Assembly: GCA_023231475.1 (NCBI GenBank)
Contig: JALJEE010001112.1
Coordinates: forward strand, 1 to 64,000
DNA length: 64,000 nucleotides
Source: Seison nebaliae
Taxonomy: Eukaryota; Rotifera; Pararotatoria; Seisonacea; Seisonidae
Direction: 5' to 3'
The notes beneath the pieces are model-generated. The model was given only the letters and a program-made list of their open reading frames with translations, made no database searches and was not told where the DNA came from. This document shows positions 683 through 59,462 of the stretch, piece by piece. A program made the translations under genes and the position numbers. Every line of letters begins with the position of its first letter. Within the stretch, counting starts at the first letter, position 1.

Positions 683-3600
683 ATGCAAGACAAAATCGGA
701 AAACTTCAATTGAACTACCAGAAATGGATGGATCAACAGAAGGAGAACTCGAAAACGGAAACAGTTAAAAGTGAGAAAGCTGTTCCCAAACCGATGAACG
801 AACCAGAAGACATGGAAGTGTCGGATGAAGATGAAGAAGAAGAAATGCCATTCGTCCAATCTCATAATGAAGCTCCAATAACGAAGATTGAGAAGACTGT
901 GGTTAAATTGAAAGAAGAGAAAATAACTCCTAAAATATCACAAGTTGGATTTCATGATCAGACAGAGAATTTTTTGAGTAGTCGTCCAATTATTAAATGT
1001 AAATTAGAGAATATTGATGATTATAAAATATCGATCGATAATATATTTAGTGATGAAACGAAGATTGATGAAGATCTCCACAACTCCAATGGGAAGCGAC
1101 CATTATTATTCTTATTTGAAGATGATGATGACGATGATGAATTTGGTGGGAAGAGAAAGAAAAAATTATCTATTAAAAAAGAAAGTAAAGAAGAAGAAGA
1201 AGATACTTTAGAGAAGTTTATGAAAGAGAATGATCGACAAAAGAATGCTGAAGATTTAATGAATAAGAATATGAAAGAGAAGAAATTATATGAAGTAAAA
1301 ACTAGATCAGGTAATATTACTACGAATGATTTGACGAATGGAGATCAAAAAAAGAAGAATATCAAAATACATTGTGAAATAACAAACGTTCTCCCAGACG
1401 AATCATTAGAAACGCCATTATTAAATAGTCATGTCATTGACAATTTGAATGAAGACGAAGATGATGATGATACATTGGAAGGATTAGTGGCATCATTAAA
1501 AAATCCAGGAAAGAATAAATCGGTTTATTATTAATTTCTTCCAATTCATATAATTGTTGATTAAAAGGAAATGTTGAAAACGGATCATTCTCGTGTTTAT
1601 TACAAAAAATTCAGAAAAATTTTCTATAACGAAATTCCTGAAATTTCAAAAATTTCTGATCATAAAATCCATCAATTACGTCAACAATGGGAAATTCATG
1701 TTGGAATATTTTCTTATTTTTTTTATTTAATAATAATTTTATTAAAAAAAAAAAAGGTGCGTGGACGTCGTTGTCCGAGACCGATAACGGAATGGGCACA
1801 TTGTGGTTTTTCAATTCGAATACTCGATACATTGAAAGCGTTAATTTTTCATTAATCTCATTTAATTTATTCTTCTTCTATTATAGACATGAATTCACTA
1901 AATCAACACCAATTCAATCTCAATCTTTACCGATTATTCTATCGGGCAGAAATATGATCGGTATCGCTAAAACAGGTTCTGGTAAGACATTAGCCTTTCT
2001 ATTACCCTTGCTCAGACATGTTATGGATCAACCACCATTAGACTCTGGTGATGGACCAATCGGTTAATTATTTTTCTTGTACTATTTAAATTATCATATG
2101 ACTTAATATTTAGCCATCATTATGGTTCCTACGAGAGAATTATGTCTTCAAATTTTCAAAGAATGTCGTCGATTTACAAAGTCGTTAGATTTGAATGTTG
2201 TACCAGTATATGGAGGTACTGGTATCGCTGATCAGATCGCTGAATTACGTCGTGGGGCAAATATCATCGTTTGTACTCCAGGAAGAATGATCGATCTTTT
2301 AGTTGCCAATAACGGTTTTATACAATTTTATTCGATTATTATGAAACTTTATAAATGAATTATAATTTATTTCTTCTTTTTCCAGGACGAGTAACGAATC
2401 TTCGACGAGTAACTTATGTTGTAATAGATGAAGCTGATCGTATGTTCGATATGGGATTTGAACCACAAGTCAAAAAAATTTTGGATAATATTCGACCTGA
2501 TCGTCAATTGGTCATGTTTTCCGCCACATTCCCCAAACCAATGGAGACACTTGCTCGAGCTTATTTAGATAAACCAATTGCTATCATTGTTTATTTAAAA
2601 AATTTTATTTAATTAATTTATATTTTCAGATTGGAGGACGAAGTGTCGTTTGTTCAGATATTGAACAACATATAATTTTGATAGAAGAAGATAAGAAATA
2701 TTTGAAATTATTAGAATTGTTGGGAATTTATACATTACAAGGATCAGTTCTCGTATTTGTCGAACGACAAGAAACAGCAGGTTAAATTCATATTTATTTC
2801 CTTCAAATCATTTTAATATTTGTGAAAAGATGAAATTCAAAAAAGTCTTTTGAGCAATATGTATACGTCATTCGCTTTACATGGTGGAGTAGATCAATAT
2901 GATCGAGCATCAATCATCAGTGATTTCAAGGCGGGAATAGTGACAGTTTTGGTCGCTACTAGTGTCGCCGCTCGAGGTTTAGATGTAAAGAAATTGATTT
3001 GTGTCATCAATTTCGATTGTCCGAATCATTACGAAGATTATGTTCATCGATGTGGACGTACTGGACGTGCAGGAAATAAAGGATTCGCTTTTACATTCAT
3101 CACACAAGATCAAGACAATTTAGCAGGCGATTTAGTCAAAGCGTTAGAGTTGAGTCATATTCCAATTCCGGAACAATTGGATTTAATGTGGAAAGCGTAT
3201 GTAGCTCGAATGGCAAAAGAAGGAAAACAAGTTCGTCTCACACATCATGGAACAATTTATCGAGGAAAAGGTTTCCGTTTCGACCATAAAGAAATGAAAT
3301 TAGCAGAAAATGAAAAAAAAGACAAAATGAATGTGATGGGCGTACCAGTCATTGATTCGGATGAGGAAAATGATGAGAAATTAAAAACCGTCGAGAATAC
3401 CATCAATGATTTTATGGGTAAATGGAAAACGGTAAATACAGATGTCACAGTCGATTCTGATAAACCGATGAATCAACTCATCAATATTGATGATGGAAAA
3501 AATATGAAAAATTTTACAGGATCTCGTTTCGAAGATATCGCTCAACCACCAACTCTACAAACTGACAATGGTGAGAAACCTCCAGGGATTGTCGAAATCC

Positions 3601-4375
3601 CAAAAGAAGACGGGTTTGTCATTCTCTTCCTTTTCTCATTAATCTTTCTCTTTTAAGAGTTTTTGATGAAATCAGATCAATTCGACATTCGGAAGCAGCG
3701 AAGAGAGCAGCTGAAAAATTGAATCGAATGTTAAATTATAATAAAACGACTAATGAATCATCTATCGATAATTATCGAAAAGTTTTATTTCATTATTTTT
3801 CCATTTTCCACTCTACTTATCTTCCATGTCAGTTATATATCGCCGAAATCGACATAAACGATTTACCACAGACAGCTCGTTTAAGATTGACTAGTCGAGT
3901 TTATTTTTTTATAATTTTATTTCATATCATCATCATATTCTCCCACCATAATTATTATATTCAGCAATTTGTTACAGAAATTCAAGAGATTACTAAAGTT
4001 GGAATTAGTGTTCGTGGCACTTATATCGATCCATCGAAGAAGAAAGAGAAAAAGAAAAGTTTTCTCATTTTTCTTTCGTTTCTATAATTATCTTTTTCTT
4101 CTTTCATTAGTAAGTGAAACTGGCGTTCTACCATTATCCGTATCAAATAACATCTTTTTGAATTTGGAAGCGCCAGAAGAGAAGAAACTTCATATTCGAT
4201 TAGAATCGTATAACGAAAATGATATTAGCTACGCTAAACAAGAAATCAAACGTATATTAAGAGAAGAATTGACGAAAGTTCATTTTCTTTAAATTTTCTC
4301 TTTTTTCAAGAATAATTCGTCGATATTTAGATTCCTATTCAATATTCAGTTCATCGAGGAAGATTTAAATTCTAA
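683..4375 (+). CDS. DDX46: DEAD-box pre-mRNA splicing helicase DDX46/Prp5
   Basis: ATP-dependent RNA helicase of the U2 snRNP (Prp5 family), acting in the nucleus at branch-site recognition. Thirteen exons fit: 683-1522, 1568-1699, 1757-1839, 1887-2062, 2114-2314, 2386-2588, 2630-2780, 2830-3613, 3658-3781, 3833-3898, 3965-4058, 4111-4277 and 4331-4375. They give 1,021 aa, close to the human protein. The acidic/Lys-rich N-terminus is followed by the Q-motif region, AKTGSGKT (Walker A), PTREL, GGTG, TPGR, DEAD, SAT, ARGLD and [10 protein letters not shown]. The C-terminal block ([13 protein letters not shown]) is typical of DDX46. The last exon is only 45 nt and ends in HRGRFKF, like the human NKGRYKVL end. 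All 12 introns are 41-71 bp and start with GTT. The ATG at 683 is the first in frame after a stop at 635, but an upstream exon is possible. Confidence 0.95.
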
Positions 4376-58522: not shown

Positions 58523-59462
58523 ATGATGTACCTATTCTTTCTTTATCTTGTGGTAAATGTAGTTCTTCAATTAACGGATGGTCACAAACAAAAATCAAAT
58601 ATCATGCGCTTCGCAGAAAGTGTGAAAACGAAAAAAAATGGAATAACTAATATAAATTACGAGATTGACGTCGAGAAAACTGAAAAAGAAGATAAATTAA
58701 TAATTAAATCAATTGAAGGGAAGACGATAGAAGAAGAAATAATCGATGATCCATGTGAATCTGTTGTATCTAGTCCATTTGAGTTGGATTCAACTTGTAA
58801 ATCCAATTTTTTTTTAGCTCAAAAGAAGCAAATTATCTCGATTATGGTGGCAGGTAACAAAGAAGAATGGTTTGATAAATTTTCGCTAGCAGAAGAACTT
58901 ACGGATGAACCTCCTCCTAATTTATCAACAATCTCCGATACAACACCACATTACTTCCATGAATCTTTAAAGAGTTTGGTATACGATAAAGTGTCTATTA
59001 ATATATCATATCGATTTCATTCAAAATAATTTCCTTAAAGATTTTGTTTCAGATATATAACCAGAATCAAATAGTCATAGAAATTAAATTTAAAATTGAT
59101 GGATCACCACACCTGTTAACATGGTTTTCAAAAAAATATATCGAACATGTTAAAGTATTTGATACTGTTGGAGGAGAAATGAAAACAGCCATTAGCAACA
59201 GTAACTTAATCCCTAAGAGGTTAATAATATTCCTTATATCGTCTTTTTCCATATATATATATATATTTGAATATTGATAAATCACAGAAATTATCAATGT
59301 ATGAATAAATCAGGAATTAATGTTGCAATTATGACGTCGGAAATAACCCAAAATTCGTTGTTGGCTTTTACCGTATATACTAGTTGTATTACCGACGTAT
59401 TATGTAAAGACAAAGCACTTCCTCTGATAACTTATAGGTCAGAATCTACCGAGTATGGTTAG
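58523..59462 (+). CDS. predicted secreted protein, orphan
   Basis: Three exons (58523-58990, 59053-59219, 59288-59462) join in phase to 269 aa. A signal peptide (MMYLFFLYLVVNVVLQLTDG) is followed by a Lys/Glu-rich segment, a central region with Cys pairs (DDPCES, STCKS), and a more beta-like C-terminal half (IVIEIKFKIDGSPHLLTWFS, then INVAIMTSEI, then TSCITDVLCKDKALPL). Open frames on both sides of each intron that resume exactly in phase support it as a real gene. It lies in a mobile-element-rich region and I recognise no family. It could be a lineage-specific secreted or effector-like protein (inference). Confidence 0.5.

Follow-up and report, generated by a model that had tools for sequence, protein, structure and literature searches.

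GTT intron starts in the rotifer Seison nebaliae and a probable matching change in U1 small nuclear RNA

Canonical metazoan introns of the U2 type carry A or G at position +3 and G at position +5 of the 5' splice site (donor), and the U1 small nuclear RNA (snRNA) of these systems has the 5' end AUACUUACCUG, which is among the most conserved of RNA sequences. The donor is also contacted by factors other than U1, and in engineered suppressor U1 snRNAs the 5' end has been altered in the laboratory so that it pairs with changed donors at single sites. The subject here is the introns of a stretch of 64,000 bases (the window, bases 1-64000 of one contig) from the genome of the rotifer Seison nebaliae, most of which begin with GTT, together with the U1 genes of the same genome, three out of four of which carry a changed nucleotide opposite this T. 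By compensatory co-evolution with U1 snRNA, the 5' splice-site consensus of this animal has very probably moved from GURAGU towards GUU.

Most introns of Fritillaria borealis break the GT/AG rule; its two versions of U1 do not differ in their conserved 5' ends, and the authors state that an altered U1 was not how this departure came about (PMC13326754). In Eurytemora affinis, one of five potential U1 copies carries a C8 to U change for which a match to GA-AG introns has been proposed, and the same variant occurs in a human U1 that is annotated as a pseudogene (PMC7072748). The protist Entamoeba histolytica has GUUUGU donors; its U1 snRNA is said, with reference to earlier work, to be absent, and U6 may activate the donor (PMC6085484). 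One paper holds that work such as that of Schwartz et al. falls short of definitive proof that donor variation correlates with U1 sequence (PMC10599564). For Seison, an epizoic rotifer of the Syndermata (PMC8351084), neither GTT donors in rotifers nor a U1 with A at nucleotide 6 turned up in a literature search that had most subscription papers outside its reach. The Seison genome paper contains “intron” twice and “splic” once, in no case concerning donor sequence (PMC8351084), and passages of a paper on Seison lamins (PMC10125929) and of PMC3033335 hold nothing on Seison donors.

Introns of the window and of other stretches

The S. nebaliae assembly comprises 36.03 Mb in 846 contigs, and introns were placed on it by two routes. 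In the first, three published Seison proteins (SNEBB_010012, SNEBB_010015, and SNEBB_010030) were mapped exactly onto the window, with GC donors permitted at a penalty and GT/GC...AG as the only intron ends; published Seison gene models may rest partly on RNA-seq. The DNAI2 protein of the window matches SNEBB_010015 at 99% identity across 100% of the query. All 23 introns of these models map as GT...AG, and sliding the junctions in ways that are neutral for the mRNA yields no alternative GT...AG placement at any of them. GTT opens 20 of the 23 (87%), namely all 12 in DDX46, five of seven in DNAI2, and three of four in THOC5.

The second route was a two-strand gene hidden Markov model (HMM) with codon usage and imposed GT...AG ends, in which donor positions +3 to +6 started from a uniform distribution. 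It was trained on 299,238 bases from 21 contigs, consisting of the window and 24 other stretches and amounting to 0.8% of the assembly; one stretch (L006), a duplicate of a section of the window, was left out. Introns below 24 bases in length, those with an N, and those lying 12 bases or less from the end of a stretch were not counted. The resulting 316 introns, to which all HMM counts below refer unless stated otherwise, comprise 291 GTT (92%), 13 GTA, 6 GTC, and 6 GTG, with a GTT majority in every stretch except one (L009, one of two). The window contributes 66 introns, of which 61 are GTT, three GTG, and two GTA. A smaller first training set of 249 kb, since superseded, had given 259 introns with 89% T at +3. 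The initial annotation, which counted 54 GTT donors among 59 introns (92%), is borne out in kind by both routes: exact mapping of SNEBB_010012 returns the 12 GTT introns it had given to DDX46, its exceptions GTGAGT (twice in DNAI2) and GTATGG (THOC5) recur in the mapped proteins, its GTGTCT exception is also called by the HMM (58991-59052), and the HMM agrees on four GTT introns each in the BUD13 and caspase genes. In the CAP gene (w17, identified by eye), to which the initial annotation had assigned a GTAAAT exception, the HMM draws four GTT introns.

It is hardly credible that the bias is an artefact of A+T richness or of gene modelling. Intron bodies are indeed 81% A+T, and HMM training feeds on itself, with some of its errors going towards GTT; however, T makes up 92% of +3 whereas it makes up 37% of +4, and the published models, too, have GTT in 20 of 23 introns. 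Of 318 bases that follow a GT within intron bodies, 48% are T, a background against which 291 of 316 has a p of 4e-64 and 20 of 23 a p of 1e-4. In round 0 of the HMM, with +3 not yet learnt, 58% of 388 introns already had T at this position, compared to 21% when the +3 of the same introns had been rewritten to A or G, and reversed sequence gave 19-26% T in a much smaller set of introns, which shrank from 195 to 93. Blind training recovered 65% A and 32% G from the introns rewritten to A/G, and 45% T when +3 was rewritten to the intron background. Starting the HMM from a GTRAGT donor led to 314 introns with 93% T, 306 of them in common with the set of 316; training without the window gave 91% T in 264 introns and training on the window alone 90% T in 74. 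Single calls err in both directions, as the HMM moves the GTGAGT donor of DNAI2 intron 4 to a neighbouring GTT 9 bases downstream, thereby adding three residues that are absent from PDB homologues, skips the GTATGG intron of THOC5, inserts into THOC5 a GTT intron (47685-47956) that is absent from the published model, and calls a GTG intron at 15479 that is probably false. The 92% is therefore approximate and has to be read next to the 87% of the published models.

Measured against intron-body composition (Kullback-Leibler), the donor holds 0.68 bits of information at +3, 0.25 at +5, 0.04 at +4, and 0.01 at +6. G at +5 occurs in 65 introns where 19.6 are expected, a 3.3-fold enrichment that still leaves it in the minority, and the earlier impression that +5 is unconstrained was mistaken. 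The combination of A or G at +3 with G at +5 that marks U2-type donors is not what these introns display, as T stands at +3 in 291 and G at +5 in 65 of the 316. On the exon side, A and G at -1 exceed their codon-position expectation (146 versus 112 and 81 versus 59, respectively), as does A at -2 (156 versus 115) and at -3 (141 versus 114); G at -1 and G at +5 show no association (p = 0.75). The acceptors are TAG in 151, CAG in 112, and AAG in 53 introns with a modest enrichment of T at -5 and -6, so that their description as relaxed in the initial annotation is fair as long as the relaxation is understood to be mild. The 5-mers enriched near the acceptor are AT-rich and TC-rich words, with no clear branch-point motif among them.

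The introns are short (median 51 bases, middle half 45-63), as would be expected if GTT had arrived with newly inserted introns, for instance introner-like elements, and not through alteration of old ones. Such an origin is nevertheless very unlikely. An all-against-all comparison of the 316 introns yields 16 pairs at E<1e-4, and the ten matches listed span 17-34 bases; nor do the introns share a single phase (140/102/74). A population of introns resembling each other in sequence, as introner-type introns would, was rejected on the basis of these 16 pairs.

U1 and the other spliceosomal RNAs

Four U1 genes (U1a to U1d) were found in the genome among the best 41 of 293 candidates, with scores of 97.4-112.9 bits compared to an Rfam gathering score of 69.5; as the profile searches for U1, U2, U4, U5, and U6 scored only the best 41-47 candidates each, the gene counts for these snRNAs are lower bounds. 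Three of the four start with AUACUAAC(C/U)UG and not with AUACUUACCUG, with U replaced by A at nucleotide 6 (A6). U1a and U1b have the 5' end AUACUAACCUG, while that of U1c is AUACUAACUUG, with C9 additionally changed to U; the canonical AUACUUACCUG is present in U1d only. In the standard register of U1 and donor, which we assume here, nucleotide 6 pairs with donor +3. The initial annotation had proposed a shifted donor consensus with a possibly changed U1 and a comparison of the U1 5' end with AUACUUACCUG: the proposal is supported by the change opposite +3 in three of four genes, and the comparison gives a difference at nucleotide 6 in these three and identity in U1d. Contig C208 carries both U1a and U1d, so that the two U1 types come from a single genome. 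A genome-wide exact scan for ATACTNACYTGGC followed by G within five bases, which is blind to U1 copies with any other 5' end, returns the four U1 genes and one further place (C629, L038); the latter was rejected as a U1, having no Rfam match at the gathering score.

The A6 U1s pair with more donor positions than the canonical U1 at 291 of 316 introns, with equally many at 6, and with fewer at 19, an advantage that comes largely from +3. The four genes keep most of the pairs of the model (43/46 in U1a, 40/45 in U1b, 37/45 in U1c, and 42/46 in U1d), and two-sided changes occur among the copies at 23 of the 46 model pairs, a pattern that points to a long history of selection to keep the fold of U1. 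The Sm site is AAUUUNUG in three genes and AAUUUGUUC in U1c. Each of the A6 genes (U1a, U1b, and U1c) is followed, at a distance of exactly 9 bases, by the 3'-box-like sequence AATTAAACT, which also stands behind U5 (at 12 bases) and U2a (at 19); with one mismatch it is found behind U1d (14), U2b (18), and U6 (41), and two mismatches are needed for U2c, with 0.04 matches of up to one mismatch expected by chance per 60 bases. An upstream element, picked by eye from U1c and U5, is alike in these two at 17 of 18 bases (at -80 and -78, respectively).

Could the A6 genes be decayed copies, with GTT set by another factor such as U6, Prp8, SNRNP27, U1-C, or LUC7 and with the canonical U1 still doing the work? 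The U1 copies are just 59-64% identical outside the first 11 bases (63% for U1a and U1b, whose 5' ends are identical at 11 of 11 positions), other factors do contact the donor, and a search for the presence of domains of the U1-C, LUC7, and METTL16 types gives matches to each in the genome. Yet A6 is common to three copies that have compensated stem pairs and an equidistant 3' box, the change sits at the one nucleotide that should face +3, and the U6 and U5 genes found have kept their boxes, all of which makes decay improbable. Independently of this question, an identity of about 60% among four U1 genes of one species seems unusually divergent.

U1, U2, U4, U5, and U6 are all present with matches over the Rfam cut-offs. 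The single U6 gene found (best 47 of 5404 candidates) has an intact ACAGAGA, and the change in the ACAGA box that had been considered as a possibility is not supported; a change of U6 was rejected on the basis of this gene, as was a change in the U5 loop, which in the one U5 gene found is the unchanged GCCUUUUAC. The branch-site pairing stretch of U2, GUAGUA, is likewise unchanged, and U4 has two matches. A third U2 copy (U2c; 1501-1702 of stretch L028, G000:C796:78598-78799) scores 78.7 bits, compared to 139 and 135 for the other two, has many broken pairs, and is probably a decayed copy. No match was obtained for U12 among the best 42 of 3167 candidates or for U11 among the best 39 of 5078, in searches run with no positive control. 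U12-type donors (GTATCCTT/ATATCCTT) were looked for as GTATCC, which is absent from the 23 donors of the published models and the 25 non-T donors of the HMM, AT donors being excluded by the models themselves. The minor spliceosome may have been lost.

A probable joint change of U1 and the donor

These findings are most economically explained if U1 nucleotide 6 and donor +3 changed together by compensatory co-evolution. A6 would form a Watson-Crick pair with U at +3 of the donor, where normally U1 U6 (pseudouridine 6) pairs with A or G. On this account, the A6 U1s would be expressed and would be the main readers of the donor. At an intermediate point of the shift, both types of U1 would have been present together, which is plausible given four diverged U1 genes, and the single canonical U1 gene as well as the few introns of the GTGAGT type may be remnants of this stage. 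The C9 to U change in U1c could allow pairing with A at -1, where A is enriched, but the parallel enrichment of G at -1 and of A at -2 and -3 leaves this as a suggestion only.

Several observations weigh against this account. The blind HMM, once trained, leans somewhat to GTT. U1c combines its deviant Sm site (AAUUUGUUC) with the fewest kept pairs, and U1d, besides its canonical end, retains 42 of 46 pairs and has a 3' box that deviates at one position, so that both U1 specificities may be active. The 3' box is no proof by itself, because U6 has a one-mismatch match at 41 bases, and a search for the upstream element of U1c and U5 returned nothing in U1a, U1b, U1d, U2a, or U2c, the upstream DNA of U2b and U6 being too short for this search. 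The donors pair weakly with any U1 (a mean of 5.3 of 9 positions for A6), as +4 and +6 have nearly no preference. Finally, DNAI2 alone holds two full GTGAGT donors.

In an alternative account, two U1 classes would share the work, the A6 U1s reading GTT and the canonical U1 reading a minority of GTRAGT introns that possibly form a regulated set. Such a division of labour would fit the full canonical 5' end of U1d, with its well-kept fold and near-match to the 3' box, and both GTGAGT donors of DNAI2, which suit the canonical U1 at +4 to +6. Against it, an HMM with two donor classes leaves 6 of 319 introns in the GTR class, at least one of them probably spurious, and a separate strong GTRAGT class was rejected on this count; G at +5 is found in 6 of 25 non-T donors and 59 of 291 GTT donors, which is no clear difference. 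We therefore consider a shared workload rather unlikely. In loop II, U1d has AGAGCAC, and the A6 copies have AUUGCAC, which we take to be the U1A site; the copy with the canonical end is accordingly the less typical one in this loop, a further point against two working classes.

The compensatory change can also be framed more broadly, as a case in which an animal's 5' splice-site code would have been reassigned in nature, much as codons can be, with two U1 specificities living in one genome. Here, duplication of U1 would have made +3 ambiguous, the A6 U1s would have taken over, and introns would then have been rewritten to GTT; the canonical U1 would still be kept, perhaps for residual GTRAGT introns, and C9 to U in U1c would represent a second step towards A at -1. 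This wider framing is put forward tentatively, with the odds somewhat against it.

Introns of genes in the window are collected in the table below. Among the proteins they interrupt, THOC5 (47911-50622) has its own published Seison record as the sole match at E <= 0.001 in a protein search (7996 candidates scored), and this record carries the Pfam domain PF09766. A chitinase-like protein drawn by the HMM at 27860-29938 and identified by eye has a lysine-rich insertion in its middle.

Table. Positions, strands, and donors of introns in genes of the window
Intron	Position	Strand	Donor	Basis
DDX46 intron 1	1523..1567	+	GTTTAT	SNEBB_010012 exact mapping, HMM
DDX46 intron 2	1700..1756	+	GTTGGA	SNEBB_010012 exact mapping, HMM
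DDX46 intron 3	1840..1886	+	GTTAAT	SNEBB_010012 exact mapping, HMM
DDX46 intron 4	2063..2113	+	GTTAAT	SNEBB_010012 exact mapping, HMM
DDX46 intron 5	2315..2385	+	GTTTTA	SNEBB_010012 exact mapping, HMM
DDX46 intron 6	2589..2629	+	GTTTAT	SNEBB_010012 exact mapping, HMM
DDX46 intron 7	2781..2829	+	GTTAAA	SNEBB_010012 exact mapping, HMM
DDX46 intron 8	3614..3657	+	GTTTGT	SNEBB_010012 exact mapping, HMM
DDX46 intron 9	3782..3832	+	GTTTTA	SNEBB_010012 exact mapping, HMM
DDX46 intron 10	3899..3964	+	GTTTAT	SNEBB_010012 exact mapping, HMM
DDX46 intron 11	4059..4110	+	GTTTTC	SNEBB_010012 exact mapping, HMM
DDX46 intron 12	4278..4330	+	GTTCAT	SNEBB_010012 exact mapping; acceptor in HMM 4349
DNAI2 intron 1 (exception)	13374..13424	-	GTGAGT	SNEBB_010015 exact mapping, HMM
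DNAI2 intron 2	13192..13251	-	GTTTCA	SNEBB_010015 mapping, HMM; joined codons fit PDB homologues
DNAI2 intron 3	13005..13048	-	GTTAAT	SNEBB_010015 mapping, HMM; PDB homologue comparison
DNAI2 intron 4 (exception)	12841..12890	-	GTGAGT	SNEBB_010015 mapping
DNAI2 intron 5	12534..12577	-	GTTTTC	SNEBB_010015 exact mapping, HMM
DNAI2 intron 6	12268..12309	-	GTTTCA	SNEBB_010015 exact mapping, HMM
DNAI2 intron 7	11858..11897	-	GTTCAA	SNEBB_010015 exact mapping, HMM
THOC5 intron 1 (exception)	50487..50529	-	GTATGG	SNEBB_010030 exact mapping; missed by HMM
THOC5 intron 2	50311..50357	-	GTTACT	SNEBB_010030 exact mapping, HMM
THOC5 intron 3	48483..48528	-	GTTTTC	SNEBB_010030 exact mapping, HMM
THOC5 intron 4	48280..48338	-	GTTCAT	SNEBB_010030 exact mapping, HMM
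Glycogen phosphorylase intron	53998..54055	-	GTT	HMM; whole joined protein aligns to PDB 1z8d_A
Glycogen phosphorylase intron	54264..54332	-	GTT	HMM; whole joined protein aligns to PDB 1z8d_A
Caspase-like gene (w9), four introns	26292-26337, 26504-26548, 26690-26737, 26906-26953 (span 26292..26953)	-	GTT	HMM only; gene name from initial annotation
BUD13-like gene (w7), four introns	19831-19872, 19958-20009, 20229-20266, 20350-20401 (span 19831..20401)	-	GTT	HMM only; gene name from initial annotation

Comparison with known systems

If U1 and most donors did change together naturally in Seison, the donor code would prove open to reassignment in an animal, and Seison would offer a natural system in which the effects of U1 at +3 can be separated from those of U6 and Prp8. 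There is also a practical warning, as a gene finder whose training relied on GTRAGT could overlook exons of Seison or put them in the wrong place. The genome paper reports 21.1% of conserved eukaryote genes as missing (PMC8351084); that this figure is inflated by gene finding of such a kind is our own suggestion and might be the case.

Seison shares with canonical metazoan U2-type introns the GT...AG ends, the fold of U1, the ACAGAGA of U6, and the loop of U5. It differs from them in the T at +3 (92% in the HMM, 20 of 23 in published models) and the A at nucleotide 6 in three of four U1 genes, and furthermore in having G at +5 in a minority of introns and little preference at +4 and +6. Unlike the engineered suppressor U1s, the change in Seison is natural and extends across the sampled introns.

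Fritillaria borealis and Seison are alike in being animals that depart broadly from the usual donors, but Seison keeps GT/AG and has an altered U1 (PMC13326754). Entamoeba histolytica resembles Seison in having U at +3, although it is reportedly without U1 (PMC6085484). Eurytemora affinis and Seison both have an altered U1 5' end that is proposed to fit unusual donors; in contrast to the former, the alteration in Seison is found in three of the four U1 genes and concerns most of the introns called (PMC7072748).

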